Positions 17,445-64,000 of a DNA stretch of 64,000 bases are shown here, piece after piece. Both the position numbers and the translations under genes were made by a program. Positions within the stretch are counted from its first letter, which is position 1. The number at the start of each line of letters is the position of its first letter. The stretch lies in the NCBI GenBank assembly GCA_023014365.1, contig JAEBUN010000028.1, positions 434,001 to 498,000 of the forward strand, read 5' to 3'. This DNA comes from Lepiota brunneoincarnata. Taxonomy: Eukaryota; Basidiomycota; Agaricomycetes; Agaricales; Agaricaceae. The notes beneath the pieces were generated by a model that saw nothing but the letters and a program-made list of their open reading frames with translations, was not told the origin of the DNA and ran no database searches.

Positions 17445-17515
17445 GTGCCCCCCCTTTAGGGCCGAGCCTCGAGGCCCAAGGTGGTCTAGGCCGGGGCCCA
17501 TTGGAAAGTTCTGGC

Positions 17516-22355: not shown

Positions 22356-22722
22356 TGTTACGCTGGTTAGGCGTCTGCAAGGCTCAATGCGATTAATGAC
22401 AAGTTAACCGTTGAGTAGTGCGAGCAAGTCTAAGGCGATGCCAAAGAACAGGAACAAATACTGTGTATAATAAGACAAAGCTAAAGATCACAAGTAACAC
22501 TTAGGTCTATATATGTATACTACTGAGGTGACTGGCATGTGATAAAGAAGAGAATCACATGCGAACGAGCGGAAATCACAGGCCAAGGGTAACTAACTAT
22601 AGACGAGCGGTGACATGTGATAAGTAAATATAACTGGGTGTTGACAGCGGGCGGTGGCATGTGTTTAAGTAAAAATAGACAGAAAATATGCGGGCGGGTG
22701 TACTAAGAGGAAAATGGTAACA
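22356..22722 (-). repeat. 3' LTR of G2 copy 1
   Basis: 367 bp; plus-strand reading TGTTACGCTGG ... ATGGTAACA, inverted TGTTAC/GTAACA termini. Homologous to 29,637-29,999, differing at several CpG sites and by a 4-bp indel in the TATA-region microsatellite. Confidence 0.92.
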
Positions 22723-22732
22723 TTACCCCCTT

Positions 22733-23899: not shown

Positions 23900-23906
23900 T
23901 GTGCTG

Positions 23907-26900
23907 TTAAATGAGGCAGTGTGATTTATTTACGGTAGGGGTGGCGGCGAGAACGACGTGGTTTCTTTGTGGCTTTAAGAAAACAAATGACAGGCATATT
24001 TTCGTCATTTTGGTTGAGTCCTTTGAGTCATTTATACTCCATCAAGAATGCTACTGCATCTCCTTCATCTTCCGTTTTGGGAATAATTTGTCCATCCACA
24101 GTTTCAGGTCTGATTTCATTGGGTACCAATTTAAAATGGGACTTGGGTTCCCATGTATTTTCAGATTTGGGCCATCCGAGCCATTTGACTAGGTATTCAA
24201 GGCGGTTTCATCGTTTTCAGTGGTTTAATATGGCTTCGATTTCGTATACTTGTTCGCCTTTGATGGTGAGGGGTGGTGGTCGAACATAGTTGGGTCCATA
24301 CGTTTCAGTTTCAGTATACGGCATGAGGAGTTGGGCATGGAATACGGGGTGAATTTTCCAACGTTTGGGAAGTTTGAGTCGATATGAAACAGGGGGCAAA
24401 ACGTCAAGGATGCGGAATGGTCTGAGACGTTTGGGGGCCATTTTGCGTGTGACATATGGGGTATTTAGGTTCCGGGCGTTGAGCCAAACCATTTGATTTT
24501 CGTGGAACGGGGTAAACTTTGATTGACGTCAATTTTCCATATGTTTCATGGTGGTTTCATGTGCGGTTTTAGCGTTTCAGCGGTATAGATTGATTAATTC
24601 CATGCGGTTGTTGACGGTGGGGGATTTGGTTTCAAGGAGAACTGTGGGAAGTGCTTTTGGTTGTATTCCCATAATGATTTCGAACGGCGTTTGTTTTCGC
24701 AAGGCATGTGGTCTGCTGTTGTACGTGAATTCGAGGATAGGGAGAGCCTGTGACCAGTTTTCGGGGTGATGCGAACAGAAAATGGAGAGATATGCTTGGG
24801 TTTCCTGGTGTGAGTGTTCGGTTGCTCCATCTGCTTCGGGATGATAGGCTGTGGTCATTGTGGGGGTTATTTCGAGTCATTCTAACAGTTTCTGGAATGA
24901 CTGCATGGTAAAGCGTGGGTCTCGGTCGGATATGATACGTTCGGGTAGGCCATAATGTAAGTAAACTTTATTTAGAATGATGTCGGCTATGTCGTTGGCG
25001 GTTGCGGATTTGTTGGTAGGGGTGAGAATTACCCCCTTTGAGAGTCCATGGTCCACAATGGACAGAATCAAGTCAAAACCTGCGGAGGGAGGGAGGTCGG
25101 TAATGAGATCCATTGCAATCTGGGCAAATGGGCAGTTTGACTCAGGTGCAGGGATAGGGGTAAAGGCAGGCTTGGCAGGGTGGCGGTTAATTTTAAACTG
25201 TTGACAGTCAGCGCATCCTTTGACATAATCACGTGTGAAACTGGCCATACCGGGCCAGTAGAAATCACACTCCAATGCATGAAGGGTCATATCGATACCG
25301 GGGTGTCCTGCGGTGGGGGAATTATGATACTTCCATATGATATGTCGGCGGAGTTCAAGGTCTTCTGGTGGTACGGTCCTACCATCGTAGGTAACAATTA
25401 GACCTTTTGGGGTCTGCGTCACGGAATATTGGGAATCCGTCGGGGTGTAAGGGGTGGTCAAGAGGGTGGTAATTTGTTTGGTGGTATGTACGTCATAGGT
25501 ATTGTGGCAGTGGATGTCGTCACGTGTTTCTTGGTCGATGGTGTTAATAAATATAGCATCGGGCAACATGGTTATGGATTTGTTGTCCTCGTCTTCATCG
25601 GGGATGTGATCGGGACATCGGGAAAGAGCGTCGGCAGCAGGTATTTTTGTTCCAGGAACGTGTTCAATTTGGAGATTAAAGCGGGAGAGGAATTGATGCC
25701 AGCGGGCCTGGCGTCGGTTTATGTCCTGCGGTTTCTTCCAGTAAGTAAGGTTTTGGTGATTGGTATGAACTTTAACGGGGAAGGGTCCTCCTTCGAGATA
25801 ATGACGCCATTCTCCTAGGGCGTGAATAATAGCAAGTAGTTCGCGGTCGTGAATATCGTAATTTCATTCAGCGGGTGTGAGGGTTTTCGATAGAAAAGCC
25901 ACAGGATGACGTTGATTATTAATGTTGGTTTGATAAAGTATGGCTCCGGTTGCGTATTTCGAAGCGTCACATTCGATTTCAAACGGTTTTGATTGGTCGG
26001 GCATTGTAAGCACGGGTTGCTTTGAAAATTGAAGTTTCAAAGCATCAAACAAGTCTTGACATTCGTTGGTCCATTCGAATAGTCGTTTGGTCGACATAAG
26101 AGCGTTAAGGGGTTGGGCAATAGCAGAATATCCATGAATAAACTTCCGATAGAAGTTGCAGAATCCTATAAATTTACAGACGTCTTTAGTACATTTTGGT
26201 ATGGGCCATTGGGCAATTCCAGCTAGTTTGATGGGGTCCATTTTGATTTTATTGGGTGTGATGATCATACCGAGGTACTCCATGCGATCGCGGTAGAATT
26301 CGCATTTCTCGGTTTTGAGGTAGATGTCGTTCAAGGCCAAACACTTGAGAACTTCTTCCATAATGCAATCGTGTTCCTCCTGGGTACGAGCGAAGATGAG
26401 GATATCGTCCATATATACGACGATTCCTCCTTTGCAGATTGGGGACGCTAGGATGTCGTCCATGAATGCTTGAAAAGTCGCGGGGGAATTACACATTCCG
26501 AAGAACATGACGGTCGGTTCGAATAATCCAAGTGGGGTGTTAAACGCTCCTTTCCATTCGTCTCCTTTCTTGATATGAATGTTGTTATATCCGGCACGAA
26601 CATCAAGTTTGGAAAATATGCGGGCTCCTTTGAGTTTATCCATAATTTCGGTAACCATCGGGATTTGATACGCGTTTTTGACCGTATGCTTGTTGACATA
26701 GTGGTAATCTTGACAGGGGCAAAGTGAGCCATCCTTCTTATCAACGAAGAAGAACAGGGAGGCCATCGGGGATTTCGACGGACGGACGTAGCCTTTATGG
26801 AGGTTTTTGGATATGAACTCTTTCAAAGAATTGTCCTGGTTTGGGGAAAGTTTATAGGCTTTCATTGCGACAGGTTTGAATTCGGGTTTTAATTCGATAG

Positions 26901-27786
26901 CGTGGTCATAAGATCGTCAAGAAGGGAATCGTTCAGCAGCCTTTTTGCTGAAACGACTCAACCATCGGTGGAATCGGCGGGGGACTTTCATAGCAGGGTC
27001 GTCGACCTTTTTGTCTCCATGTTTAATTGCAAGTTCTGTAGCCTGACTAGTTTGGTTGATCTCGAGCTCGACATGAGCGAGTTCAGCGGGCGTACTAATG
27101 ATCTGACGCATCTCGGACTCTAGAGAGAACTCTTCGTAGTCCTCATCGAGGAGAGGTTCATAGATTGGTTCGTGCGGGGTATAGGAGAATTTTCCTTTGG
27201 GGTTGAATGCGTTTAGTCGGTCCATGGCGAGGGTAGCAATGTCGATTGGTCAGTTGTTGTACGTCAAGTACTCAGGGTGGTGGTTGCGCTTCTTTTCTTT
27301 TCTCCATTGGAACGTACGGCATTTCCAATCAATTTTCGGGTTGACTTTGTTAAGCCACAGGAAACCAAGAACCATTGGCTTCGATCCTGTTGCTGCGACG
27401 TAGGCGGTGATGGGAGTTAATTGACCATCAATTATCGTGTGGAAGGTAGAGTAATGGGTAATCATTCTGTTCAAGTTGTTTGATCCATCGAAATTGCGCA
27501 TACTGATTGCTTGGGGAAGTTCTTGCTTCCATAGACAGTGCTTGGTGACGAAGTCGTCTGATATGAAGTTTCCTTGAGCTCTGGAGTCAAGGAGGGCGAT
27601 AAGCGGGACGTCTTTTTGTTCTCTCAGGCTCTGCACCTTTAAAGGAAGATATATGGATTTATTGTTTGAAGTAGATGCGAGAGTTACAACATTACAAGAG
27701 AGAGGGGAACTGGGAGGGGCTGGCATCGAACAGAACCTCCGAATCAAAAATTTGCGAACGGTTGCATAGTCGGGTCTTTGGACCAA
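23907..27786 (-). pseudogene. pol of G2 copy 1: protease-RT-RNase H-integrase-chromodomain
   Basis: Frame -1 to gag and overlapping its end by about 40 nt. Protease region has LLDSRAQGNFI: the D-S/T-G triad reads DSR (GGA to AGA). RT with DYHYVNKHTVKNAY and catalytic YMDD (~26,410); RNase H CDASKYATGAILYQ (~25,960); integrase HHCC (CADCQQFK, ~25,205) and core residues MDLITDLP, ISDRDPRF and ADGATEHSHQE; chromodomain YEIEAILNH...LEYLVKWLGWP (~24,250-24,180). TGAs at several CGA sites (for example ~26,922, ~25,868, ~24,879, ~24,577). Integrase would insert new copies and the chromodomain would direct them to chromatin marks. Confidence 0.88.
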
Positions 27787-29357
27787 GTCTCGTAGACTTC
27801 AACGGCTTTGGTTTTGGGAATAGATTCGATAATGGAACGGATTTTAAGGGATGCATTTCGTATGTTGGTTGCTTTATCGATTTTGGGTTGTGGTCGGGCG
27901 ACATTGGGACAGATATGGGAGATATGACCAGGTTTAAAGCAGTGGAAGCATAAGCCTTTCTTGTAGGCACGTTTTTCTTCGGGTGTGAAGATGGCGTTGA
28001 TATCAATATCGTCATTGTGGGGGAAATGATCCGGTTGGTCTTCTTCAGCTTCTTCATGATCGGGGTGCGGATCACCAGGGATATTAAAAGAAGGGTAATA
28101 TTCGGGACCTTCATTAAGGTACGTGTTGTCAATCTCCATAGCGTTCGGATCACACGATGGGCAGAACTGATAGTGGTGATTTGGTCTGGTATAGGACAAT
28201 TGTTGTTGTGGTTTATGATACGGTTGTTGCGTATGACGGTAGTTATTGGCTGGGGCGGGGCGTGGACGGAATCCTGGACAGGGTCCAAGGATTGTGGAAG
28301 TGGTACACCAGTTATGGTCAATCTGGATGGCGTGGCGGTACCATTCGTTTATGGTGTTAGGCAGGTTCAGGTCAGTGAGAATTTTGTAAGCGAGGTTTCG
28401 ATTGATGACGTTTTGGAATTTCTCTATGAGGGCGCAATCTTCGCGGAGTCCTGAATGATGGATGAGAGTCTTAAACTCTGCGACGTTACGGGATCCTTGA
28501 CGGAGGGTGTTGAGATTGTGGAATGCCTGGGAGGGGACGTTGATGGGTGAGAATGCTTCGGTGAATTCTTCAATGAGTTCTTCATACGATCTGGGGGTGA
28601 ATACTCCCCAAGTTTGTTTGGACTGGAAATATTGGTTTTTCCAGTTGCTGGCTTCTCCGGATTTAAGCAGGGACAAGAAAAATACAATCTTCTTATCGTC
28701 GTCATAATAGATGTCGGTGTTACCATAGAGGTAGAGTGCTACGGAATTAATGAATTCTTGAAAGTTCTTGCAGTTGCCGTTGAACGGTGTCAGTTTCTCG
28801 AACGATAGTTCTTTGTAGCCGTTATGCTGTGGTTGTGGTGACGGTGGACGGGGTGGACCTTGTGGTGGTCGAGGCGGTCCTGGTGGGCCTTCAGGTGGTC
28901 CTGGCAGTGGGCGGTCTGCCAGCAGGTCTCCCATAGTTTTGGACATGGGTTCAGAGGGAGGGGAAGGTGGTGGGAAGGGTTGTAGGTTACGGGGGAGTTG
29001 GTATTGTCCGGGTTCGATCTGATGGATAGGAAAGCGTAAGGGACCTCCTGTGCTTGTGGTTGCTTCTAGCAGACCAAAAGGAAGTCGAGGCGGTTCGACG
29101 GGTGATGGTTCAGTAATCTGGGTGGCTACCTGAAGGGTGGTATCCACTGGTTTGGGTGGGGTTGCGTATACAGGTTGGTCAGACTCAGGAGAAGACAAAG
29201 GCATGCAAAAAGAAGGAGTAGGGTGAGGAGTAGATGGAATGGCATGTGGGGTAACAGACAGTTGAGAGGGTCCTGGAGATCCAGAACCAGTTTGGGAGAT
29301 ATGAGGGTTAGGATGGTCTGTCCTGGACTTGAAATAACTACCCGTGATGGGCAACAA
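27744..29357 (-). CDS. gag of G2 copy 1
   Basis: Open for 537 codons. Pro-rich N-terminal third (PPRPPQGPPRPPSPQP), then a retrotransposon-gag capsid region (FNGNCKNFQEFINSVALYLY ... FTEAFSPINVPSQAF), and one CCHC knuckle near residue 475 (CFHCFKPGHISHIC). Gag assembles the particle and packages RNA. ATG chosen because it follows the 5' LTR leader and the frame opens shortly before it. No stop inside, unlike pol in the same element. Confidence 0.85.
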   Translation of the reverse strand: MLPITGSYFKSRTDHPNPHISQTGSGSPGPSQLSVTPHAIPSTPHPTPSFCMPLSSPESDQPVYATPPKPVDTTLQVATQITEPSPVEPPRLPFGLLEATTSTGGPLRFPIHQIEPGQYQLPRNLQPFPPPSPPSEPMSKTMGDLLADRPLPGPPEGPPGPPRPPQGPPRPPSPQPQHNGYKELSFEKLTPFNGNCKNFQEFINSVALYLYGNTDIYYDDDKKIVFFLSLLKSGEASNWKNQYFQSKQTWGVFTPRSYEELIEEFTEAFSPINVPSQAFHNLNTLRQGSRNVAEFKTLIHHSGLREDCALIEKFQNVINRNLAYKILTDLNLPNTINEWYRHAIQIDHNWCTTSTILGPCPGFRPRPAPANNYRHTQQPYHKPQQQLSYTRPNHHYQFCPSCDPNAMEIDNTYLNEGPEYYPSFNIPGDPHPDHEEAEEDQPDHFPHNDDIDINAIFTPEEKRAYKKGLCFHCFKPGHISHICPNVARPQPKIDKATNIRNASLKIRSIIESIPKTKAVEVYETWSKDPTMQPFANF

Positions 29358-29623
29358 TGTCTTTTCCGGTAAAGAGAAACCTCCGAGAATTTAAGATCCA
29401 CTAAGACGTTCGACAAGACAAACGAGGAATCTGAGAACCTATAGAGATGCTGGGGTGCGAAGGTTCAGAAGAACAACAGCCGGAGTTCTTCGGGGTGAGG
29501 ACCGTGTCAGATGCTCAAATAGACGAGCGATGGTCCTCAACAGATTACGGTTCTGTCTAGACCTCACAGTTAACGGTACTGTGCAAACCAAGGAGGGCGA
29601 GAAGAGAGAAGAGAGGCAACGAG

Positions 29624-29796
29624 TAGCTTTGTCTTTTGTTACGCTGGTTAGGTGTCTGCAAGGCTCAATGCGATTAACGACAAGTTAACCGTTGAGTAGT
29701 GCGAGCAAGTCTAAGGCGATGCCAAAGAACAGGAATAAATACTGTGTATAATAAGACAAAGCTAAAGATCACAAGTAACACTTAGGTCTATATATA
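29624..29796 (-). promoter_or_regulatory. G2 copy 1 core promoter and self-primer pairing sites
   Basis: Minus-strand TATA (TATATATA, 29,789-29,796), then 25 nt downstream TAGCTTTGTCTT (29,764-29,753), the probable RNA 5' end. Just outside the LTR (29,635-29,624, one base offset) lies AAGACAAAGCTA, its perfect 12-nt complement. In Tf1/sushi elements the RNA 5' end folds back on such a site to prime reverse transcription in place of a tRNA. Confidence 0.75.
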
Positions 29797-29999
29797 CTAC
29801 TGAGGTGACTGGCATGTGATAAAGAAGAGAATCACATGCGAACAAGTGGAAATCACAGGCCAAGGGTAACTAACTATAGATGAGCGGTGACATGTGATAA
29901 GTAAATATAACTGGGTGTTGACAGCGGGCAGTGGCATGTGTTTAAGTAAAAATAGATGGAAAATATGTGGGCAGGTGTACTAAGAGGAAAATGGTAACA
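29637..29999 (-). repeat. 5' LTR of G2 copy 1
   Basis: 363 bp, TGTTACGCTGG to ATGGTAACA in plus-strand reading; holds the promoter and self-primer segment. Confidence 0.92.
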
Positions 30000-32612
30000 T
30001 AGTGCCACCAGATGCGAAAAGCTTCAAATATTGCCAGGAGTTCCTTGTCGTGGGTGTTATAATTAAGTTTGGCCATGTTAAAGGTGTGGGAATGGAATGC
30101 AACAGGGTGGACCTCACCATCATTGGTGATGATAGAGAGGATGGCCGCAAGGGCATAGTCAGAGGCATCGGTCTCAACAATGATCTGAGCATTGAGGGCC
30201 CAAGGAGTGAGGATGGGGGCAGATATGAATGCTTTTTTCAGGGAACTGAAGGCTTCATGACATTTGTCAGTGAAATTCCATTTTATGTCTTTGCAGGTGA
30301 GGTAAGTGAGCGGAACAACAATGTTGGAGTAACCATGAATGAAGCGACGATAGAAATTGGTGAAACCTAAGAAGGACTGGATGTCCTTGACTTTCTTGGG
30401 TTCCGGCCACTCCTGGATGGTCTTGACCTTAGATTGGTCCATTCAGAGACCATCAGGGGAAAGGATGTAGCTGAGGTATTCCACTGTGTCAGAGTGGAAC
30501 TGGCATTTGTTGGGGTGGGCATATAGACTGTGTTGTCAGAGCCGCTTGAGGACTTCCTTGACTTGGTCATGATGGATACTATGATTGTTGGAGTATATCA
30601 GAATGTCATCAAGATAGATAGTAATGCAGACGTCAAGCATGTCCTTGAATATATCATTCATGAACTGCTGGAAGGTGGTGGGGGCATTGGTGAGGCTGAA
30701 AGGCATAACCATCCATTCGAAAGAGCTGTAGCGGGTCCAAAAGGCAGTCTTCCATTTGTTGCCATCAGCAACGCAGACAAGATGGTAAGCATGATGGAGG
30801 TCAATTTTGGTATATATGCAGGCTTTGCAAGGGGAGTCTAAGAGGTCGGAGATGAGCGGAAGGGGGTAATGGTCCTTCTTGGTAATACAGTTGAGACCTC
30901 TAAAATCAACACATAAATGGAGGGAGCCATCCTTTTTCTTTATGAAGAGGACTGGGGCTCCATGAGGAGAAGTGGAGGGGCGAATGAAGCCAATAGATAA
31001 ATGTTCATCAATGAAATCATGTAGAGCTCCAAGCTCTGATTGTGAAAGGGAGTAAATGGTACTGACTGGAGGTTGACTACTGTCCTCAAGGTTAATCTGG
31101 AGGTTATAAGGGCAGTGTGGAGCGAGTGTGTCAGCACATGATTTACTGAAAACATCAGCAAACTTGTGGCATTCCTTGGGGATGGATGAGAGGTCAGCTG
31201 GGTCTTTGGAGACAGAAGAGGACACAGCCAATGTGGAGGCGGCAGAGAGATTGATTCGGAATTGTTGGGAACCAGGGAGCTTGGCAGCGCAGATAAAGGC
31301 AGGGGCATTTATCAGGGAGATGTGCAGTTTTGCGATGGGGACAGATTGGGACAAGGTCCCAGACAGGGGTGGTGAACCTAGGTCAGGAGTGTCAGGGGTG
31401 GCCATAGGCAGGGCTGATGTGGGTGTGATGCAGGTAGAGATGGAAGCAGGATTCTCAAGTAGGGATGGCCAGAAAGTGATACTGCCCAAAGCCCAGTCAA
31501 TCAATGGATTGTAGCGGGTAAGCCAGTTGTGTCCTAAGACCACAGAACAAGAAGAGTTGAGCCAGGTGACATAAGTGTCCAAGATAATAGATTCACCAGA
31601 GGGGAAAGATACAGGCAGTTGCGCAAGCTCCATAATGTAGGCATTTGAGGTCCCATCAAATAACCAAAGTTCAATAGCCAGGATGGATGAGGTTGGAATA
31701 ATATGAGAACAAACAAAAGATGAGTCCACAAAACAGTGAGTAGAACCGCTATCAACAAGAGCTTTGAAAGGAGAAAGAGAAGAGAAATCAGAACTAACTA
31801 TATTGTCCATTGTAGAAAGCAGGTCTGAAGCGGAGAGTATGGAAGCGGAAACAGAAGATAAAGAAGTAACTAAAGGAGAAGTTAATGTAATGTGAAAAGA
31901 GTTCGGGTTGGAAAGAGCAGACACATTGAGACAGAAACTCTCTGGAGCACAGCAGAGTTCAATGCGATCCTCAATCTGTGCAGAGGCCTGAGGACCACCA
32001 ACTATTTTTCTGAGCTTGGGAGAGCTGGCACATCTGTCTTGGGGAGCTGAGCCTGTTGGCCTTTAGCCTTGGCATCAGGGAATTTCTTCTTGTCGCAGTT
32101 GGCAGCCCTGTGATTGGGATCTGCACAGACAAGGCAGAGGTTATTGTTGAAATGTCATTGACATTCCTTGGGGGTTAATTTACCGTCCTTACCAAGTTTA
32201 CTAGTAAGGTCGGATTTGGGCAGGGCCAATTTCTGACCAGTGGATGGGTTGGGTGGAGTACCCTTGAAGTTGTTGTTGTTGGGGGTGCTGCCTTTGTTGT
32301 TACTATTGGCAGGCTTGGTGGCAGGTTGTGTGTTGGACAAGGTGGATGGGGATGGATTGCCTCCAGGTTTCCTAGAGGCAGTTGGGTCTGAAGCGGCTTT
32401 GGCAGGGGCCTTCTTGCGCTGGTGTTCCCAATAGCAGGCATCAATCTTCATCACTGCTGCCTGCATTTCGATGAAGGTGTCGGGTTCGCCATTGGGCCAA
32501 TTGGACAGGATGTCCTGGATGCGGTTGGGGAGGCCTTTGTAGTAGTGGTGACAAAATACTTTGTCACCCCAGCGGAGTTGGCCAGCTAGGCGGAGAAAGT
32601 TGATGTTGTGTT

Positions 32613-33136: not shown

Positions 33137-34164
33137 TTGTTAACAGCGGTCGTTTACCTCTCTGCCTTAACTTGGCGTCTTCCCTCGTTATCTCATTGAG
33201 CGCGATCCACTAAGCTCTATAAGGCCAACCGTCTCGGACACCTTGTAGAGTGATTGAAGGCCGTCTCCAGTTATCCTCAGATACAGAAGGAGCACGGATC
33301 ATAACATGTTGTAGATGGCAATCTTCTTGTTGTAGCGCATTCGGAGGGAGTCAAGCTGCTCAGCAGCTTCTCCGGTCAGATCCATGGGACCAAAATTGGT
33401 CTGCAGTTCTAGGGTGAACTGGTCCCAGTCCTTGATCCAGTTGTGCATTATTCCATGGTTGTCAGCCTTGTTGAGGCCAATTTTGAAGTGTTGCTGGGCC
33501 ACACCTGTAAGATACATCAATACAAAGTTGACCTTGGTGGCGGGGATAGCAAACTGGGCCGGGTTGATACAGAAATAGAGTCAACATTGGAAGAGGAAGG
33601 GTTTGAGTTCGGCAGGGTTGGAACCTGTAAAGATGTCAGGTTTGCAAGCTTTGGTATGGGGAGTTCGGGGAGGCTGTGGGGCTTGAGAGTTCCCACAGCT
33701 GTCCATTTGGTCAGCTATGCATTGGAAAACTTGGAGCAGGAGTCTATCATAGTTGTCCTGGTTGTTGCCAGGTGGGATGTTGTTGTTGTTGTTGCTATTG
33801 TCTGATGGTTTGTCGTTGCCTGGGGGCCTGTCCCCATTGTCAGGATAGTCATCGGGATCACCAGGGTTGCTGGGATCAGGATTGGGGTTGGGGCCATTGT
33901 CGGGGCTGTCAGGGGTCTGGAATAGTGAGGGTTGTATATCTTCGGAAAATTGGTCTGGAGTTGAGGGCATGACTGATTGTTGGTGAGAGTGAGAAACCCT
34001 TGGGGAGCCGGGTTGCAGTTCCTCAGAAGGAGGTTGTCAAGTTATGCATTTGCTACAGCGAGCAGCTGGAGTTACCAGAGTGTGAGTACAGGTAACTGTT
34101 CAAGAGACCATGGTTAGAAAAATTCAGAGTGTGGTGGACAGGAGGAGTTTGAGTCTGATAATAC

Positions 34165-34826
34165 TGTTAGAGCTGGTGTGGGTTGGGACCAAAGCAGAGG
34201 GTCAGGGTGGTATCCTTGATATAAGGTAACTGGGGGATGGGTTGAAGTCAGTACATAGACTTTGGAACCAAGGCAGAGTACTTTGGGTGGGGGGTTGGAC
34301 TTGCAACCTCAGCTTATGTGCTGTGCCCTCCTGCTGTCCTAGTCTGTATTTCAGGGAGTTGGAGCCAAAGTGGAGTGAGGCAGAAGAGAGGAGAGGATAT
34401 GGAACAGGGAGCTGGTCTGCTGCTCGATTTGATTATCAGACTGAAGAGTACAAGCCAAGTACCTATGGTATATATACTACTGGCCTTACAAACTATGACT
34501 TGTACTGACTATGTGCAGAGCGAAGTGGAGACCAATATAGTTACAAACAGATTACAAACAGATTACAAATGGAATGGAAACTGGTACAGGTATGGAGACT
34601 GATAACATATCTTGACTATGGACAGGAAATGGAGACTGGGAACTAGAGACACCAAGGGTCAGGTGACCATGGCACATGTGGAGGTGGTCACATGGTTGGG
34701 GCAGTGGGTTGCGGTTGGAGCAAGTTGGAGCTGAGTCAGAGGGCAGAGGGTTGTTGTGTGGAACATACATGGAGTTGAGAAGCCAAAGTTTAAGTGATTA
34801 GACTCTGAGTTGGCATGGATGTGACA
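34165..34826 (-). repeat. 5' LTR of old G1 element
   Basis: 662 bp, reverse complement of the G1 LTR. TATA-like TATATATA (~34,470) and the self-primer segment (ATTATCAGACT, ~34,431) are kept; the matching primer-binding site AGTCTGATAAT is at 34,152-34,162, two bases outside the LTR. Confidence 0.92.
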
Positions 34827-54764: not shown

Positions 54765-55116
54765 TGTTACACTGGTTAGGCATCTGCAAGGCTCAATGCG
54801 ATTAACAACAAGTTAACCATTAAGTAGTGCAAGCAAGTCTAAGGTGATGCCAAAGAGCAGGAACAAATATGGTGTATAACAAGACAAAGCTAAGGATTAC
54901 AAGTAATACTTAGGTCTATATATACTACTGGGATAACAGGCATATGATAAAGGAAAGAATCACATGTGGATGGACGAGAATCACAAGCCAAGGGAGTACT
55001 AACTATAGATGGGCAGTGACATGTGATAAATAGATATAACTGGGTTCTGATTGCAGGCAGTGGTGTGTGATAAGCAAAAATAGACGGACAGGCGCGTGAA
55101 TGGGAAAATGGTAACA
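54765..55116 (-). repeat. 5' LTR of G2 copy 2
   Basis: 352 bp, TGTTACACTGG to ATGGTAACA in plus-strand reading; keeps TATATATA (~54,918) and the self-primer segment. Confidence 0.92.
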
Positions 55117-56331
55117 CCCTCTACTGTTTGTAAGGATGGTGAAGGTGTTGTAGGCACTCCACTCCATCTGGGGTGGACCTGCATTTGGAACCCTCAGCCA
55201 GGCAATTCATCTCCACGGGTGTTGGCTTATGTCCACTTGAGGCTGAAGTTGCTGCAGCCATCCCTTTGTAGGGACCTGGTCAACCATTGCAATGTTATGG
55301 TTGGGTCCATGTGGCAGGGGGGACACACCTATAACCTTATGAACATCTATTCTGATAACCGACACACTGCCATCTTGGCCCTTTGCAGGCTGGTGGATTC
55401 CCTGCCTGCCATGACCTACATGGCAGGCGACTTCAATTGCTACTCAGAGTGGTGGGATCCTAATCGGGTCTTGTATCCCAGGATCACCCAATCTCTTTTG
55501 GAGGTTGGGATGGATCTAGGACTTGATTTGGCATTACCAGTGGTACCAGGCCCAACTCACTTCCTGCACGATGTGAATCTGTCACCATTGGTGATTGATC
55601 TCATCTTCCTACCAATGGCTTGAGATCCAGATCTCAGGCCTCTGATCAATCTTGAGAAGCACAGTCCTTCGGACCATGCTCCTCTAACTTTGGTTCTCCC
55701 GGTCACTCATTTTATGACCAGTGTGATCCATCAAGTTCTGAAGCCTGATAGCGACGAGGAGTCAAAGTTCATGGCACAGATATATGAAGGGTTGGCCACT
55801 TTGTGGATGCCTTTGGACACCCCTGCAGAGGTGGAGTCTGCGGCTTTGGCTGTAGCTCGCATCATCTCCCAGGCCTGGGATGCCTTCTCTGAGGAGGTGT
55901 TCATTGTAGGGCGCTCTAATCCATGGTGGAATGATGAGTGCACTGCTGCTATTCAGGCGTACCATGCAGCTCCTTTGGAGGACACATGGTCCAAGTTCCA
56001 ACGTATTGTTAAGGCCATCAAACACAAGTTCTTGGATGAGAAGATTGAGGAGATTGCTTCTGTGAACAAGTGCCCCTGGGACCTCATGGCCTGGGTCAAA
56101 CAGTGCAAGCTCCCCACATGTGATGTAATCCAGCATAATGGAGTGCTGTGTCATGATATGGACTCTCTTTGGGATGCCCTTCACAGGACCTACAATGCAG
56201 CCTCTGACCACACTGTGGATTCCTCTGTATTGGACATTCTCCCTGTGCAGGCAGTGCAGGTATGGTATCCTTTCTTGGCTTTGGAGCTCCAGGACGCTCT
56301 GCGTTCTTGTGTGAAGAAGACTGCCCCAGGA

Positions 56332-57584
56332 TCCGGGGGTCCTGGTGGCAGCGATGGATGCAAGTCTGCCGCCCCACCGGGTCCACCAGGCAGTTTCGGC
56401 CGCCCAGGTTTTCCAGGGGCTGGGCTGCATTCATGCGGTCCGGCTTCCAGGGGGGAAGGTTATGGCTCCAGAGGCCGAGCTCTTCGCCATCCGGCTGGCA
56501 GTGTCCAAGGCAGTTTCTGTCAAGGGCGCCGTGGGTCTCGTCTTGTTCACTGACTCGATGGCCTTGGCCAGGCAGGCGGTGGACCCTTCGGTACATTCTG
56601 CCCAGGGTCATTCCTTGGCGGTTTGCTGCCTTCTCGCCGAGTGGTTTGCTGGGGGGCCGGCCCGCTCAGTTCACTTCTGGGAGGTCCCTTCGCGTGCGAA
56701 GTGGCCTTTCCACACTCAGGTGCACGACTTTGCTTGGTCATTACCTCCCGTTGGGGTAGGGGCTTGTCCCCGGGCCTTGCTTGACTACCTCCGCAAGGAG
56801 GAAGTACGGTCATGTCAGGACCGCTGGATTGATTCGTTCCAGGATCCTGACCATCGTGGGCATGGTTTCCTCCAGCTCACCAGGGACGATGACCGTCCCC
56901 TGCAGCCCACGTATCTCCATGGTGGGGCCTGGATCCCGCACACTCACTCGGTGTCAGTAATGGCCCGGATGATGCGCGCTATTCTCAATCACGCGCCGAT
57001 AGGGAGCTATCGCAGGCGTTTTTTCCCACAGGAAGCCTATTCCTGTCGCTGCGGGTTTCGGGAGGAAACTCGTGAGCACGTGTTTCAGAGTTGCCCTAGG
57101 CACTCCATGGCAGGGGTCCCAGCTATGGTCAAGGCCCTCATTGCTTTCCTCAAGGCGTCCCCGACTGCATTTGTGTTCGCTGAGAGGGCCGGGCCCCCCC
57201 CAGGGGGTATCGGCTAGTAGCTCTGCCTGGCACCCAGTTGGGTCTGGGCTGAGGCGCTGGTTATTCCCCTGCTGTCTTCGGGCAGCATGTAGGGGTTTAC
57301 ACGGGAATTGACCCCTAACCCCCGATAAGGGGGGGGACCTTGTTTCGGCTCGGTTCCCATGCCGCACGCTGGGCAGCAGCTGTCTTCCCGCCTCTGTTTG
57401 TTTGGGGCAGCTTCGTCTTGGGCATGGGGAAATGCATGCCCGCGTCCGTGGTCACGTGTTGTATGTACAGATACCCTGTAGCTTACGGCTCAGGTTGTAC
57501 CATAGTTAGTAGCTGCACGCAGCCTCCCTACGCAGCCTGCGTTATAAATTGGAGATTTAAAAAAAAAACAAAAAAAAAAAAAAA
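56332..57584 (+). mobile_element. 5'-truncated young LINE copy L4
   Basis: Begins inside RNase H and ends in an A-rich tail. Flanked by AAGACTGCCCCAGGA (56,317-56,331 and 57,585-57,599), a 13-15-bp duplication (the first As merge with the tail) typical of target-primed insertion. It retains many CpGs and an undamaged reading frame, so it is among the youngest insertions here. 3' region includes the poly-G run and GTATGTACAGATACCC motif shared with L1 and L5. Confidence 0.92.
56334..57217 (+). CDS. LINE RNase H and Cys-rich C-terminus (partial ORF2)
   Basis: About 290 codons open to TAG at 57,215-57,217. RNase H catalytic positions are intact: AAMDASLPP (first Asp), PEAELFAIRLAV (Glu) and LFTDSMALARQAVD (second Asp). 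C-terminal CRCGFREETREHVFQSC (~57,045) is a Cys/His cluster typical of Tad-like LINEs. No start of its own; this is the 3' end of ORF2. It serves as the reference that shows which residues L1 has lost. Confidence 0.85.
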
Positions 57585-57959
57585 AAGACTGCCCCAGGAC
57601 CTGACCATGTTACATGGTCATACCTGAAGGACATTGTGGCAGACCAGGTGTCCTGCCACGTGTTTGTCGATCTCACCAATGCCTGCCTGACGGCAGGGTA
57701 TTAGCCTGATTATTTCAAGGAGTATAACTTGGTGGTCATACCTAAGCCAGGGAAGCCCTCATACTCTATGCCCAAGGCCTTCCAGCTGATCATGGTTCTT
57801 AACATGTTGGGCAAGCTTGTGGAGAAGATGATCTCCAACCACCTCCAGTTTGATTGTGTCAAATGGGGGGTGTTTCATCCCAACCAGGTAGGTGGCATTT
57901 GCCAAAAGTCCACTGAGGATGCTGGGTTGATCCTCACTCATCTCGTTCATGTGGGGTGG

Positions 57960-58620
57960 TGTCATATCCACACCAAACCTAGAGCTTAACCATTAGGCTT
58001 CGGCTTCTCGACTCCATGTGTGCTCCACACGACAACCCTATGCCCTCCGACTCGGCCCCGACTGGCTCCGACCGCAACCCTTCGCCCCGATCACGCGACC
58101 TACCTCTACACGTGCCACGACCACCTGACCCTCGGTGCTCCCATTGTCCAGTTCTCCATTCTCCGTCCATAATCAGAATACGTTACCAGTCTCCATACCC
58201 GTACCGGTCTCCATTCCATTCAAAATTATTCGTAATCCGCTTGTAACCATATGGGTCTCCGCTTCGCTCCGCACGTAGTCAGTACGGGTCATCATTCGTC
58301 GAGCTAGTAGTATATATACCGTAGGCACTTGGCTTGTACTCCTCAGTCTGATAATCGAATCGAGCAGCGGACCAGTCCCCTGTTCCCTATCCTCCTCTCT
58401 CTCTGCCTCGCTCCGCTTTGGCCCCGACTTCCTGAAATACGGACTCGGACAGTAGGAGGGCACAGCACATAAGCTGAGGCCGCAAGTCCACTCTCCGCCC
58501 GAAGTACTCCGCCTCGGTCCCGCCGTCTACGTACTGACGTTGTCCCGTCCCCCTGTTACCTTATACCAAGGATACCACCCCGACCCTCCGCTTCGGTTCC
58601 GACCCGCACCGGCTCTAACA
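57960..58620 (+). repeat. 5' LTR of young G1 element
   Basis: 661 bp, TGTCATATCC to GGCTCTAACA. Reference LTR for the two solo LTRs and the old element. Confidence 0.96.
58311..58355 (+). promoter_or_regulatory. G1 LTR TATA box and predicted RNA 5' end
   Basis: TATATATA at 58,311-58,318, then AGTCTGATAAT at 58,345-58,355. The latter would be the first 11 nt of the RNA if transcription starts about 30 bp past the TATA box. Confidence 0.7.
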
Positions 58621-58622
58621 GT

Positions 58623-58633
58623 ATTATCAGACT
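58623..58633 (+). other. self-primer binding site
   Basis: ATTATCAGACT, two bases after the LTR, is the perfect complement of AGTCTGATAAT at 58,345-58,355. No tRNA-complementary TGG-type site is apparent here. In Tf1/sushi elements the RNA 5' end anneals to this site, is cleaved and primes minus-strand synthesis. Confidence 0.75.
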
Positions 58634-58673
58634 CAAACTCCTCCTGTCCACCACACTCTGAATTTTTCTAACC

Positions 58674-60080
58674 ATGGTCTCTCGAACAGTTACCCGTACT
58701 CGCACTCTGGTAACTCCAGCCGCTCGCCGTAGCAAACGCATCACTCGACAACCTCCTTCCGAGGAACTGCAACCCGACTCCCCGAGGGCTTCTCGCTCTC
58801 ACCAACAATCGATCGCACCCTCGACCCCAGACCGTTTCTCTGAAGATATACAACCTTCAGTATTCCGGACTCCCGACGGCCCCGACGACGGCCCCGACCC
58901 CAATCCTGATCCCAGCGACCCTGGTGATCCCGACAACTACCCTGACAATGGGGACGGGCCCCCGGGCGACGACGAACCATCAGACAACGGCGACAACAAC
59001 AACAACATCCCACCTGGCAACACCCGAGACGACCATGATAGACTCATACTCCGAGTTTTCCAACGCATAGCCGACCAAATGGACGGCCGTGGGAACTCTC
59101 AAGCCCCACAGCCTCCTCGATCTCCCCGTACCAAAGCTCGCGAACCTGACATCTTTACAGGTTCCGACCCCGCCAAACTCAAACCCTTCCTCTTCCAATG
59201 TCGGCTCTATTTCCGTACTAACCCGGCCCAGTTCGCTATCCCCGCCACCAAGGTCAACTTCGCGTTAACGTACCTTACCGGCGTGGCCCAGCAACACTTC
59301 GAAATCGGCCTCGACGAGGCCGACAACCACGGAATAATGCACGATTGGATCGAGGACTGGGATCAGTTCACCCTGGAACTGCAGACCAATTTCGGTCCCG
59401 CGGATCCGACCGGAGAAGCTGCTGAGCAGCTTGACTCCCTCCGAATGCGCTATGACGAAAAGATCGCCGTCTACAACGTCGACTTTCTCCGTCTGGCCGG
59501 CCAACTCCGCTGGGGTGATGAGGTATTCTGTCACCGCTACTACAAAGGCCTCCCCGACCACATCCAGGACATTCTGTCCAATCGGCCCGACGGCAAGCCC
59601 GACACCTTCATCGAAATGCGAGCAGCAGCGATGAAGATCGATGCTCGCTACTGGGAACGCCAACGCGAGAAGGCCCGCGCCAAAGCCGCTTCGGACCCGA
59701 CCGCCTCTAGGAAACCTGGAGGCAACCCATCCCCTTCCACCGCGACAAACCATCAACCTGCCGCCAAGCCTGCCAACAGTAACAACAAAGGCAGCACCCC
59801 CAGTAATAACATCTTCAAGGGCAATCCGCCCAACCCGTCCGCCGGTCAGAAATCGGCCCCGCCAAGGTCCGACCTTACTAGTAAACTTGGTAAGGACGGT
59901 AAATTAACCCCCGAGGAACGTCAACGACGTTTCGACAATAACCTCTGCCTTGTCTGCGCAGATCCCAATCACAGGGCTGCCAACTGCGACAAGAAGAAAT
60001 TCCCTGACGCCAAGGCTAAAGGCCGACAGGCTCAGATTCCCGAGACAGACGCGCCGGCTCTCCCGAGCTCGGAAAAATAG
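58674..60080 (+). CDS. gag of young G1 element
   Basis: 468 codons, intact. Basic/Thr-rich start (MVSRTVTRTRTLV), an Asp/Pro/Asn-rich segment, a capsid-like region (about residues 160-310; FTGSDPAKLKPFLFQCRLYF and TGVAQQHFEIGL), a Ser/Asn/Pro linker and a CCHC knuckle near residue 425 (CLVCADPNHRAANC). First ATG after the leader. Ends GAAAAATAG; pol continues in the -1 frame across this stop. Gag would build the particle that packages the RNA, possibly that of related full-length elements too. Confidence 0.92.
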   Translation: MVSRTVTRTRTLVTPAARRSKRITRQPPSEELQPDSPRASRSHQQSIAPSTPDRFSEDIQPSVFRTPDGPDDGPDPNPDPSDPGDPDNYPDNGDGPPGDDEPSDNGDNNNNIPPGNTRDDHDRLILRVFQRIADQMDGRGNSQAPQPPRSPRTKAREPDIFTGSDPAKLKPFLFQCRLYFRTNPAQFAIPATKVNFALTYLTGVAQQHFEIGLDEADNHGIMHDWIEDWDQFTLELQTNFGPADPTGEAAEQLDSLRMRYDEKIAVYNVDFLRLAGQLRWGDEVFCHRYYKGLPDHIQDILSNRPDGKPDTFIEMRAAAMKIDARYWERQREKARAKAASDPTASRKPGGNPSPSTATNHQPAAKPANSNNKGSTPSNNIFKGNPPNPSAGQKSAPPRSDLTSKLGKDGKLTPEERQRRFDNNLCLVCADPNHRAANCDKKKFPDAKAKGRQAQIPETDAPALPSSEK

Positions 60081-61381
60081 TCGGCGGTCCTCAGGCCTCT
60101 GCACAGACTGAGGATCGCATTGAACTCTGCTGTGCTCCAGAGAGTTTCCATCTCAATGCGTCCGCTCTTTCCGATCCAAACTCTCTTCATATTACATTAA
60201 CTTCTCCTTTAGTTACTTTGTTACCCTCTGTTTCCGCTCCTGTACTCTCCGCTTCGGACCCGCTTTCTACAACGGACAATGTAGTTAGTTCTGACTTTTC
60301 TTCTTCTTTTTCTCCTTTCAAAGCTCTTGTTGATAGTGGTTCTACTCACTGTTTTGTGGACTCTTCTTTCGTTCGTTCTCATAGTATTCCAACCTCGTCC
60401 ATCCCGGCTATTGAACTTCGGTTATTTGATGGGACCTCAAACGCCTACATTACGGAACTTGCGCAACTGCCTGTATCCTTCCCCTCCGGTGAATCTATCA
60501 TTTTGGACACTTATGTCACCCAGCTCGACTCTTCCTGTTCTGTGGTCTTAGGACACAACTGGCTCACCCGCTACAATCCGTTGATTGACTGGGCTTTGGG
60601 CAGTATTATTTTCCGGCCATCCCTACTCGAGAATCCTGCTTCCGTCTCTACCTGCATCGCACCCGCATCGGCTCCGCCTATGGCCGCCCCTGACTCTCCT
60701 GACCTAGGTTCACCACCCCTGTCCGGGACCTCGTCCCAATCTGTCCCCCTTGCGAAACCGCACATCTCCTTGATAAACGCTCCTGCCTTTATCCGCGCTG
60801 CCAAGCTCCCTGGCTCCCAACAATTCCGAATCAATCTTTCCGCCGCCTCCGCATCGGCCGCGTCCTCTTCTGTCTCCGAGGAACCGCCTGACCTCTCGTC
60901 TATCCCCGAGGAATACCACGAGTTCGCTGACGTTTTCAGTAAATCGCGTGCTGACACACTTGCTCCACACCGCCCTTACGACCTCCAGATTAACCTAGAG
61001 GATGGCGGTCAGCCTCCAGTCGGTACCATTTACTCCCTTACACTCCGACTTCCCGACTCCATGCGTGGAGTACACCCAGTCTTCCATGTTTCCATGCTCG
61101 AACCAGCCACACCTAACACCATACCCGCCCGATCGGATCCGCCGCCCGCGCCGGTTTCCATTGACGGCGAACCAGAATACGAGATTGCCCGCATCGTCGA
61201 CTCTAAGATCGATCGGCGCCGCGCGTGCAAGCTCCTCTATAAAGTCATCTGGTTAGGTTACGAAGACACTGAAGAAGAGTCCTCGTGGTTGCCAGCCACC
61301 GAGCTTGAACATGCTATAGATCTCGTAGAGGCTTTTCATTCCTCTTACCCTGCAAAGCCTGGTCCTCTTCACTCACTTTGA
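60080..61381 (+). CDS. truncated pol: protease fused in frame to chromodomain
   Basis: About 433 codons, open from the gag stop; first ATG at 60,218. Protease DSGSTHCFVDSSF (triad intact, ~60,332) and VVLGHNWL. At about 61,031-61,045 the text jumps from GTIYSL, which precedes RT in the old copy, to TLRLPDSMRGVHPVFHV, which follows integrase there. It ends with the chromodomain (YEIARIVDSKIDRR..., VIWLGYEDTEEESSWLP). Both donor sites share a short ACTCC(C)TT-like match, fitting template switching. Expression is probably by -1 frameshift at the A5 run before the gag stop. The fusion has no RT, RNase H or integrase. Confidence 0.92.
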   Translation, partial: VGGPQASAQTEDRIELCCAPESFHLNASALSDPNSLHITLTSPLVTLLPSVSAPVLSASDPLSTTDNVVSSDFSSSFSPFKALVDSGSTHCFVDSSFVRSHSIPTSSIPAIELRLFDGTSNAYITELAQLPVSFPSGESIILDTYVTQLDSSCSVVLGHNWLTRYNPLIDWALGSIIFRPSLLENPASVSTCIAPASAPPMAAPDSPDLGSPPLSGTSSQSVPLAKPHISLINAPAFIRAAKLPGSQQFRINLSAASASAASSSVSEEPPDLSSIPEEYHEFADVFSKSRADTLAPHRPYDLQINLEDGGQPPVGTIYSLTLRLPDSMRGVHPVFHVSMLEPATPNTIPARSDPPPAPVSIDGEPEYEIARIVDSKIDRRRACKLLYKVIWLGYEDTEEESSWLPATELEHAIDLVEAFHSSYPAKPGPLHSL

Positions 61382-61452
61382 GTTACTGACCACACATCGC
61401 ACCAAGAAACAACCATGTATTAAACAAACCAAAAAAAAACAACCCCGTACAA

Positions 61453-62529
61453 CTACCTATCGGTGTCGTCTCCAGAGAGCCCGGGCGACCCATTCACTTC
61501 TTCCATCAAATCCTGCACCTCCTCCTCCGAAGCGGGCCCAACACTCCCCTCCGTCTCCGAAAAATTTCCACTCGACCAATTTCCGTCCACCTGAGCCTCC
61601 CAACGCCGTAGTTGCTCGTAGCGGCCAGCAAGCGACCCCATCTTGTCGACCTTTTCCCCCAACCGAGCGATGGACCGCTCAATTCGCACCTCCAGGGTGT
61701 AGATTTTCTTGACGGTCTCCTGGTGCCTTTCTTCGATGAGCCGTTTCAACTCTACAAGGTCCATCAATTGGCATCCATCATAATACAGGATTCCTTACTC
61801 ACCTTCGAATTGCTGGCCCGACAAACCACCGGCCCCGCTCGGCTCCGTCTCCTCTTGACCCCCGCACCGTTTTTTCATTTTGCTGCACCGACGGCAACTC
61901 CTGGTGTTACTAAGAAACTATCAGTATGTAGTCCGGAAATCCTCCAAAATGACTTACCCGCCGGCCACCTCACATGGGGCCCTGTCTCGCTGGCACCTCC
62001 AGCAGGGATTCTCGCCCCCGAATACGTGCGCATGGCCCCGTCGCGGGGCCGCCCTCGCCTTTGCCTTCCCCTTACCCTTACCCCCTGAATCCCCGGAGTC
62101 CTCCTCCCCCTCTTCCTCCTCGTCCCTCGCCTCATCCCTATCCGTATATTCGGAATCCGACTCCTCCGTATCTACTTGCATCGGGTCTTCCGACAGACGG
62201 CTCGACGAGGCCCCTGTGGTCGTCGCAACAAGTCGGGCCCGAATCGCCCGACGCTCTGCCTCGGCGGTTTCCTCTTGCTGCCTCCTGATCTCCTCCGCAT
62301 ATCGCTCCTTCGCGCGCTCTTCCGCTTGTCGCTGGCGCAGCTCTATGAGCCGCCGTCGCTCCTCCTCTTGGCGCTCTATTGCCAGCCGCCGCTCCTCCTC
62401 CTCTCGCCGTTCCTCTTCTTCTAGCCTCTCGATTTCGAGCCGCTCTCGTTCCTCTCGCTCCGCCTTCTCTCTCAGTAATCGCGCCTTGCGCTCCGTAGCG
62501 GTCAGTTGACGGAATGGTTGTCTGCTCAT
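61453..62529 (-). CDS. opposite-strand three-exon gene: coiled coil and Zn2Cys6 cluster
   Basis: Exon 1 62,529-61,958, intron 61,957-61,901 (GT...CAG, branch-like TACTGAT), exon 2 61,900-61,803, intron 61,802-61,752, exon 3 61,751-61,453; 969 nt, 322 residues. Order: Arg/Glu-rich coiled coil (residues ~10-95), acidic Asp/Glu/Ser stretch, basic Gly/Lys/Ala stretch, then CWRCQRDRAPC + EVAGGS + CRRCSKMKKRC, and a second coiled coil (LKRLIEERHQETVKK...). Splicing joins the two halves of the zinc motif at GG|G; unspliced, exon 1 stops within a codon. The spacing is the Gal4-class DNA-binding signature. A nuclear DNA-binding role is inferred. No known captured host gene recognised. Confidence 0.82.
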
Positions 62530-62582
62530 GGGGGTAGGAGGTTAAGTTGTGTCCTCTCAAATTCGAATCAGTTCACCTTTTT

Positions 62583-62590
62583 TTTTATAC
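62583..62590 (-). promoter_or_regulatory. TATA box of the opposite-strand gene
   Basis: Minus-strand GGTATAAAAAAAA about 55 bp upstream of the ATG and outside the LTR. The old copy has GGGTATAAAAA at the matching place (~17,516-17,526). Confidence 0.6.
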
Positions 62591-62651
62591 CCTCGTGGAA
62601 TTTTCCGGTGGGCCCCGGTCTAGACCGCCTTGGGCCTCGAGGCTCGGCCCT

Positions 62652-62664
62652 AAAGGGGGGGCAC
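62652..62664 (+). other. polypurine tract of young G1 element
   Basis: AAAGGGGGGGCAC directly before the 3' LTR; the plus-strand primer site for reverse transcription. Conserved next to the old copy's 3' LTR. Confidence 0.8.
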
Positions 62665-63325
62665 TGTCATATCCACACCAAACCTAGAGCTTAACCATTA
62701 GGCTTCGGCTTCTCGACTCCACGTGTGCTCCACACGACAACCCTATGCCCTCCGACTCGGCCCCGACTGGCTCCGACCGCAACCCTTCGCCCCGATCACG
62801 CGACCTACCTCTACACGTGCCACGACCACCTGACCCTCGGTGCTCCCATTGTCCAGTTCTCCATTCTCCGTCCATAATCAGAATACGTTACCAGTCTCCA
62901 TACCCGTACCGGTCTCCATTCCATTCAAAATTATTCGTAATCCGCTTGTAACCATATGGGTCTCCGCTTCGCTCCGCACGTAGTCAGTACGGGTCATCAT
63001 TCGTCGAGCTAGTAGTATATATACCGTAGGCACTTGGCTTGTACTCCTCAGTCTGATAATCGAATCGAGCAGCGGACCAGTCCCCTGTTCCCTATCCTCC
63101 TCTCTCTCTGCCTCGCTCCGCTTTGGCCCCGACTTCCTGAAATACGGACTCGGACAGTAGGAGGGCACAGCACATAAGCTGAGGCCGCAAGTCCACTCTC
63201 CGCCCGAAGTACTCCGCCTCGGTCCCGCCGTCTACGTACTGACGTTGTCCCGTCCCCCTGTTACCTTATACCAAGGATACCACCCCGACCCTCCGCTTCG
63301 GTTCCGACCCGCACCGGCTCTAACA
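62665..63325 (+). repeat. 3' LTR of young G1 element
   Basis: 661 bp, matching the 5' LTR except for C at 62,722 in a CpG (T at 58,017). Confidence 0.96.
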
Positions 63326-63332
63326 GGTGGGC

Positions 63333-64000
63333 TTTTTTTTTTTTTTTTTTAATCTCCAATTTATAATGTGGGCCGCATAGGGAGGCCGTGTGCAGCTACT
63401 AACTACAGTACAACCTGAGCCGTAAGCTACAGGGTATCTGTACATACAACATGTGACCGCGGATGCGGGCATGTGTTTTCCCATGCCCAGGACAAAGCTG
63501 CCCCGAACAAATGGAGGCAGGAAGACAGCTACCGCCCAGTGTGTGGTGCAGGAACCAAACTGAAGTGAGGTCTCCCCCCTTACCAGGGGTTAGGGGTCAA
63601 TTCCCACGTAAATCCCTACATGCCACCCAAAGGTAGCAGGGGAATAACCAATGCCCTGGCCTGGACCCAACTGGGTGCCAGGCAGAGCTACTAGCCGATA
63701 CCCTTAGGGGGGGGCCCGGCCCTCTCAGCGAATGCAAACGCGGTTGGTGACACCTTGAGGAAAGCAATGAGGGCCTCGACTGTAGCTGGGACCCTCACCA
63801 TGGAGTACCTGGGGCAACTCTGGAACACATGCTTGCGAGTCTCCTCCCAAAACCCACAGTGACAGGAATAACCTTCCTGTGGGCAAAAGCACCTCCAATA
63901 GCTCCCTATCAGCGTGTGATTAAGAATAGCATGCATCATCCAGGCCATCACTGACACTGAATGAGCGTGCAGGATCCAGGCCCCACCGTGGAGATACATG
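63333..64000 (-). mobile_element. LINE copy L5, 3' end (runs off the window)
   Basis: Minus-strand LINE of the L1/L4 family: complement of the A tail (poly-T 63,333-63,350), 3' untranslated region with poly-C run near 63,575, and the ORF2 C-terminus. It starts directly after the target duplication of the young G1 element. Its 5' part lies beyond 64,000. Confidence 0.88.
63691..63999 (-). CDS. LINE ORF2 C-terminus, partial
   Basis: 102 codons to a stop at 63,691, homologous to the end of the ORF at 56,334-57,217: YLHGGAWILHAHSVSVMAW, then the Cys/His cluster CHCGFWEETRKHVFQSC and FAFAERAGPPPKGIG. Truncated by the window edge; Arg-to-Trp/Cys/His changes at CpG codons indicate ageing. Confidence 0.8.
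   Translation of the reverse strand: MYLHGGAWILHAHSVSVMAWMMHAILNHTLIGSYWRCFCPQEGYSCHCGFWEETRKHVFQSCPRYSMVRVPATVEALIAFLKVSPTAFAFAERAGPPPKGIG

Follow-up and report, generated by a model that had tools for sequence, protein, structure and literature searches.

The locus described here raises the question of why a Ty3/gypsy retrotransposon of the fungus Lepiota brunneoincarnata holds an intron-containing gene on its opposite strand, and what the protein encoded by that gene might do. The element spans positions 57960-63325 of the window, by which we mean the whole analysed stretch of 64,000 nucleotides, with the TSD GGTGG on both sides, and these borders correct an earlier description. The LTR length is 661 nt after trimming, the repeat being 662 nt with its last G as shared flank. 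The following parts were recognized in the element:

57960-58620, plus strand: 5′ LTR (TGT...ACA), with the TSD GGTGG at 57955-57959
58674-60080, plus strand: gag open reading frame, 468 aa (Pfam Retrotrans_gag, E 2.8e-9)
60218-61381, plus strand: remnant pol open reading frame with protease, deletion junction and chromodomain (~61178-61342) (Pfam RVP_2, 3.5e-9; Chromo, 1e-7)
61032-61043, plus strand: 12-bp junction of a 2.49-kb pol deletion, found once in the genome
62652-62661, plus strand: polypurine tract AAAGGGGGGG before the 3′ LTR, recognized by its sequence
62665-63325, plus strand: 3′ LTR, with one difference from the 5′ LTR and the TSD GGTGG at 63326-63330

According to the Pfam matches to gag, PR and Chromo in the window copy, and to the full-length pol frame in the copy L044, the element is a chromovirus (Ty3/gypsy). 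Among the pol relatives listed, the closest named one is that of Leucocoprinus birnbaumii (80%), and others come from Pisolithus, Trametes and Lentinula; no relatives of pol were found in viral contigs. Relatives of the L044 pol carry RT, RNase H and integrase domains, with Chromo in many of them. The window copy itself is devoid of RT, RNase H and integrase owing to the pol deletion at the 12-bp repeat, whose junction occurs a single time genome-wide at up to one mismatch. This loss coexists with nearly identical LTRs in the same copy.

The antisense gene is located on the opposite strand, between the pol stop and the 3′ LTR, that is, in the aORF-3R position. The original prediction described it as a minus-strand frame of three exons, and both coordinates and join were reproduced: exons 62529-61958, 61900-61803 and 61751-61453 together give 969 nt, corresponding to 322 codons and a stop. 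Its features are:

62583-62589, minus strand: TATA box of the antisense gene, ~60 nt before the ATG
61958-62529, minus strand: exon 1, with a long charged helix, an acidic stretch and the first half of the zinc cluster
61901-61957, minus strand: intron 1, 57 nt, GTAAGT...CCAG, with a CTGAT branch-like site
61803-61900, minus strand: exon 2, with the second half of the zinc cluster and a linker
61752-61802, minus strand: intron 2, 51 nt, GTGAGT...GTAG
61453-61751, minus strand: exon 3, with a 59-residue helix (possible dimerisation coil) and an acidic tail; stop at 61453-61455

The zinc cluster would indeed be completed by splicing, as had been proposed, since its cysteines are spaced C-x2-C-x6-C-x6-C-x2-C-x6-C, with Cys3 and Cys4 on opposite sides of intron 1. 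In the window gene this intron opens with an in-frame TAA, and unspliced RNA would therefore be limited to a 191-aa protein with half of the cluster.

In regard to whether such a protein is maintained, the gene was aligned in 43 copies, comprising the window gene and 42 loci (29 near, 4 from larger fetches and 9 spreading identity) picked non-randomly by score and identity spread, with the decayed and deleted copy L049 and the copies L059-L067 left out. Both introns are present in all of them, and start with GT and end with AG in 43/43, even though copies diverge by as much as 43% in intron 1 and 47% in intron 2; the branch-like CTGAT/CTGAC of intron 1 is likewise found in each. In 39 of the 43 copies the ATG is preceded by a TATAA at a distance of 56-65 nt, in agreement with the expectation that the gene has its own TATA box outside the LTR. 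The spliced frame is uninterrupted in 29 copies and broken in the remaining 14. All 258 cluster cysteine codons encode Cys, with 20 silent TGC/TGT variants (tallied per copy, not per event), and are thus not the neutrally changing codons that would have spoken against the original prediction.

Comparison of element subfamilies shows the gene, including its TATA box outside the LTR, to be conserved, the coding sequence by purifying selection. In the survey of other copies suggested earlier, dN/dS fell below 1, and even below 0.5, in all seven chosen subfamily pairs (0.13, 0.22, 0.19, 0.16, 0.17, 0.18 and 0.32), the bootstrap upper limits of these values being 0.18-0.45. Within subfamilies, the ratios were 0.38 (window-L010) and 0.52 (window-L031) for the young subfamily, and 0.13 (L044-L046) and 0.12 (L046-L047) for that of L044. 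In exon 1, comparison of all six frames gave the annotated one the lowest ratio in 11/11 pairs. It was free of stop-bearing codons in nine of these pairs, the two exceptions involving L051 and L057, which are broken copies, whereas each of the five other frames carried 2-14 such codons. For the 34-codon zinc piece, the annotated-frame ratio was 0.39 in both W-L050 and W-L056, tied at 0.17 in W-L052, and was not the lowest in W-L051 (0.28 vs 0.24 in one sense frame). The GT-AG borders in all 43 copies and the low dN/dS support a spliced gene whose protein is under selection, and the Gal4-type spacing of its cysteines is also as originally described.

The spliced protein gave at least 250 matches in the 55.6-Mb assembly, with exon 1 at no fewer than 113 places, and an RT query taken from L044 also recovered at least 113 places; all these counts are lower bounds drawn from the best-scoring candidates only. 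Among the matches listed, the gene stands opposite to RT in at least 84 of the 113 RT places, at 2.47-4.19 kb and most commonly at 2,892 bases (28 times), and no same-strand gene was listed within 6 kb of RT at any of the 113. Nine of the other 29 RT places were opened, and full-length gene matches were present in two (L061 and L067), so most of the family copies listed have the antisense gene. Four of the nine (L059, L060, L062 and L063) share one internal gene deletion, while L064, L065 and L066 have other deletions. The shared deletion occurs at exactly four places in the genome, with four different flanks, and joins the first 19 codons to the tail in frame, as judged by eye, L063 having a stop in the remainder. 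Such a distribution indicates that the gene-deleted lineage apparently continued to move once most of the gene had been lost, and it strongly suggests that an element can do without the gene in cis. Either the protein works in trans, as is probable, or it is dispensable. The possibility raised at the outset, that other young copies lack the frame, is thus realized in part, by one gene-deleted lineage at four places. What this lineage retains is the promoter, the first 19 codons and the tail.

A candidate for an intron-less processed copy, at C1:3250860-3251765, had seemed too short for introns but was rejected because intron 1 is kept there; one deletion runs from within exon 2 across intron 2 and into exon 3. 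Among candidate relatives of the antisense protein from other organisms, 0 of 640 and 0 of 62 passed, a weak sign of absence in a protein set that may miss spliced fungal genes; with pol, 7,958 of the 7,978 candidates scored there passed.

As for the nature of the protein, Zn2Cys6 clusters (PF00172) follow the spacing C-x2-C-x6-C-x5..12-C-x2-C-x6..8-C, and this is kept exactly in 43/43 copies. The HMM search recommended by the original prediction gave a divided answer: the isolated zinc piece of the window copy matches Pfam Zn_clus with E 0.0024 and 18.4 bits, below the 21-bit gathering score, while the full spliced protein had no Pfam match at E<=1. Zn_clus matched six of seven subfamily zinc pieces at E<=1, with a best E of 7e-4. 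In the PDB, phmmer at E<=10 returned three sequences only, all of them Zn2Cys6 domains (Pho7 twice and PPR1, E 0.69-1.2). A profile search also placed the two Pho7 entries and PPR1 first (E 0.15-0.26). Next came aBAK (two chains) and a designed inhibitor, matched through the stretch after the cluster, and for two of these three chains the E was nearly the same (0.28). The best Pfam stretch aligns the second half of the element cluster with the first half of the Zn_clus model, and it is this second half that holds the basic residues SKMKKRC, the first half being without the usual ones. With the basic residues so placed, the protein may not contact CGG in the usual way. A base contact of Gal4 is Lys18, which is also missing in Pho7 (PMC5559640). 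In single-sequence models of each exon alone, the exon 3 peptide is predicted as one helix at residues 2-60 (50 residues with pLDDT >=90) and the exon 1 peptide as one helix at residues 11-105, the latter possibly being a lone charged helix rather than a coiled coil. From the order of cluster, short linker and helix, which is that of Gal4 and Ppr1, we infer a dimeric DNA-binding protein of Zn2Cys6 type. The antisense, intron-containing gene of the family, kept working by selection, probably encodes a DNA-binding protein, and the element may encode its own regulator.

Genes in this position are known from other elements. Additional antisense ORFs between pol and the 3′ LTR have been described in Grande, RIRE2, Retand, PvRetro13 and Boty (PMC7264820), and the gag-pol of Boty has a CHROMO domain (PMC4227169). 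The earlier statement that such an arrangement is unusual in Ty3/gypsy elements was therefore too strong, as antisense genes before the 3′ LTR occur both in plants and in the fungal Boty (PMC7264820, PMC4227169). Boty of Botrytis cinerea, with its gene brtn (Zhao et al. 2011, via PMC7264820, PMC8365987 and PMC4227169), is likewise a fungal CHROMO Ty3/gypsy element with an antisense gene; the passages citing brtn, by whose description it is compared here, say nothing of a Zn2Cys6 cluster, of introns, of selection or of binding sites. Retand resembles the present family in having an antisense ORF between pol and the 3′ LTR, with predicted DNA binding and some non-autonomous members, and 97% of its clusters have antisense ORFs with the TRP28 domain, probably DNA-binding (PMC11963269). 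However, Retand is a plant, non-chromovirus element with another domain, and the main text of that report mentions neither zinc nor an intron (PMC11963269). The Grande gene23 is also antisense with an upstream promoter, and its protein is nuclear, yet Grande is a plant element and no zinc cluster is named in the passages of the same review that describe it (PMC7264820).

Outside this group, HBZ of HTLV-1 similarly arises from a spliced antisense transcript and is a factor of DNA-binding type (PMC1459196, PMC3185765), but it is a bZIP protein starting in the 3′ LTR, unlike the zinc-cluster gene with a TATA box outside the LTR. Regulators of the Gal4/Ppr1 type share the six-cysteine spacing and the downstream helix (PMC5559640), whereas the element protein has its basic residues in the second half, scores below the Pfam cut-off and is encoded by a retrotransposon. 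A 2020 review states that a clear resemblance to another protein had been described for none of the antisense genes in this position, and names a transposase-28 domain for Retand and an SMC domain for PvRetro13 (PMC7264820). A Zn2Cys6 gene in antisense within a retrotransposon was not found in the open-licence literature searched, and in that literature the combination of a Zn2Cys6-type cluster, an intron inside the cluster, selection that could be measured, and derivatives without the gene, all within a single fungal family, seems to be new. With a recognizable DNA-binding pattern, selection and natural gene-less derivatives, the function of such an antisense gene becomes directly testable.

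The explanation we prefer, tentatively and with confidence that falls somewhat short of even, is that the gene encodes a trans-acting, Zn2Cys6-type DNA-binding regulator, as the antisense gene of a lineage of fungal chromoviruses. This lineage holds a third gene on the opposite strand, between pol and the 3′ LTR, and a dimeric nuclear zinc-cluster protein, produced from the antisense promoter, would act in trans. More speculatively, this protein could bind CGG-N6-CCG in the leader that separates the TATA box of its gene from the polypurine tract. Its own promoter would then be its first target, which would result in autoregulation of either sign, and later affect expression or silencing of the element. 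The antisense placement itself could be due to introns not being removed from the sense genomic RNA, which is reverse transcribed, so that only in this orientation would a spliced gene survive retrotransposition. The presence of the introns in 43/43 copies agrees with antisense placement protecting them, and the same may be a general reason for antisense placement, which lets a gene with introns pass intact through an RNA intermediate.

Several other explanations have to be weighed against this one. The gene could be a passenger no longer needed by the family, its constraint being a relic, and the frame broken in 14/43 copies, the gene-deleted lineage with its four copies and the dN/dS of 0.38 and 0.52 in two young-subfamily pairs all point in that direction. 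However, the frame is intact in 26 of the 34 copies of one set, and dN/dS is low between several subfamilies and inside the L044 subfamily (0.13, 0.12), so we consider a mere passenger quite improbable. Even less can be said for an antisense RNA as the functional product, with dsRNA controlling the element and the protein incidental. Although pol and the gene converge, with 71 nt between their stop codons, and their transcripts could overlap, the dN/dS of 0.13-0.32 and the 258/258 cysteine codons need a protein, which largely refutes this idea and leaves it with hardly any probability. A protein-based alternative is an accessory replication protein, taking part in RNA export, particle assembly or as an integration partner, in which the cysteine cluster binds RNA or protein. 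The lack of the usual basic residues in the first half of the cluster and the long charged N-terminal helix would suit such a role, and an RNA-export accessory protein is known from the LTR element Cer1 (CERV, PMC10309623), but all three PDB matches of phmmer at E<=10 are transcription-factor domains, and we regard this possibility as doubtful, if less so than the passenger.

The alternative closest to a trans-acting regulator is an anti-silencing or LTR-activating factor, which would bind element DNA away from its own promoter and either relieve silencing or drive the LTR. Action in trans fits the gene-deleted copies that still moved, the cluster is of DNA-binding type, and a precedent exists in VANC of the VANDAL DNA transposons (PMC5735166, PMC10398659). 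Nevertheless, the LTR does not have the appearance of a target, contrary to the earlier suggestion. There is no CGG-N6-CCG in the 30,348 nt of LTR from the 43 copies, although an old family LTR elsewhere in the window contains a single site, at 8848, and in 12 LTRs CGG is kept at 0.63 and CCG at 0.52 vs 0.708 for all triplets, which CpG decay may explain; the LTR as target was accordingly set aside as unsupported by either measure. Matched pairs of LTR and protein variants were also rejected, the class of the LTR and that of exon 1 being exchanged independently of each other. For example, L044 and L045 are 1-12% apart across LTR segments and 21-26% in exon 1, while the window copy and L044 are 21-26% apart in exon 1 and 0-1% in exon 3. 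Such decoupled divergence means that the modules recombine, presumably via template switching. On this evidence an anti-silencing or LTR-activating role is unlikely, though it deserves more credence than an accessory replication protein.

Returning to the trans-acting Zn2Cys6-type regulator, its candidate targets lie in the leader, between the polypurine tract and the TATA box:

62616-62627, no strand assigned: candidate site A, a CGG-N6-CCG inverted repeat, in 31/43 copies
62606-62617, no strand assigned: candidate CGG-N6-CCG overlapping site A, in 26/43 copies
62596-62607, no strand assigned: candidate site B, CGG-N6-CCA in the window and CGG-N6-CCG in 5/43 copies, 20 bp from A

Gal4, Ppr1 and others typically bind pairs of CGG triplets as homodimers (PMC5559640). 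The 43 leaders contain 62 CGG-N6-CCG (31 at A, 26 overlapping it and 5 at B), all from copies sharing ancestry, and at least one occurs in 43 of 50 leaders, while the 43 gene bodies contain none; the spacing of Ppr1 is also six. L052, L057 and L067 carry both A and B, at a distance of 20 bp. On the other hand, in dinucleotide shuffles of seven leaders, at least one site appeared in 2-13% and two sites in 0.03-0.6%, and CGG with spacer 6 ranks only 20th by copy number, 19 other arm-spacer pairs being as frequent or more. Changed cells at site A number 14/255 in the arms vs 16/253 in the spacer, and at site B 22/246 vs 18/246; the arm changes at A are all transitions, and two of the spacer changes are transversions. 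The six CGG-N6-CCG of the 64-kb window are distributed among gag (three), the old LTR mentioned above (one) and the leader (two), and L044 has one each in leader, pol and gag. Because the arms are no better kept than the spacers, and sites are also found in gag and pol, the chances of an own-promoter target are lowered, and the leader CGG-N6-CCG is a lead, not proof. The fuller version, in which the family runs a Gal4-type autoregulatory circuit in trans that sets element activity and is exploited by gene-less and pol-less derivatives of the family, is accordingly more a possibility than an expectation, somewhat unlikely as it stands. Many leaders also have a second palindrome-like stretch, GAACTGGTTC, just past the TATA box (GAACTGATTC in the window, 62565-62574), and the arm GAA with spacer 4 occurs somewhere in 43/50 leaders.

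The window holds older traces of the family as well, among them a much older gene copy, which was found where it had been reported, at 17.5-20.5 kb:

17576-18498, with its tail at 20377-20469, plus strand: old decayed copy of the antisense gene, with intron 1 and both zinc halves present

In this copy a stop lies just before the last Cys. The old family copy at 16819-31729 appears to be split by another gypsy element, with pol at 26985-24130 and 35% identity to the family, and a further gypsy pol at 52045-49196 is 33% identical to the antisense-gene family. Three family LTR-like stretches (4930-5593, 8208-8868 and 34164-34826) are 81-83% identical to the young LTR, and the window search found no antisense-gene match beside them. 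The young element itself is flanked by inverted arms (56908-57575 and 63333-64000) of 668 nt that are 85% complementary, and the ORFs at 55096-57217 look, from their translation, like a non-LTR element.
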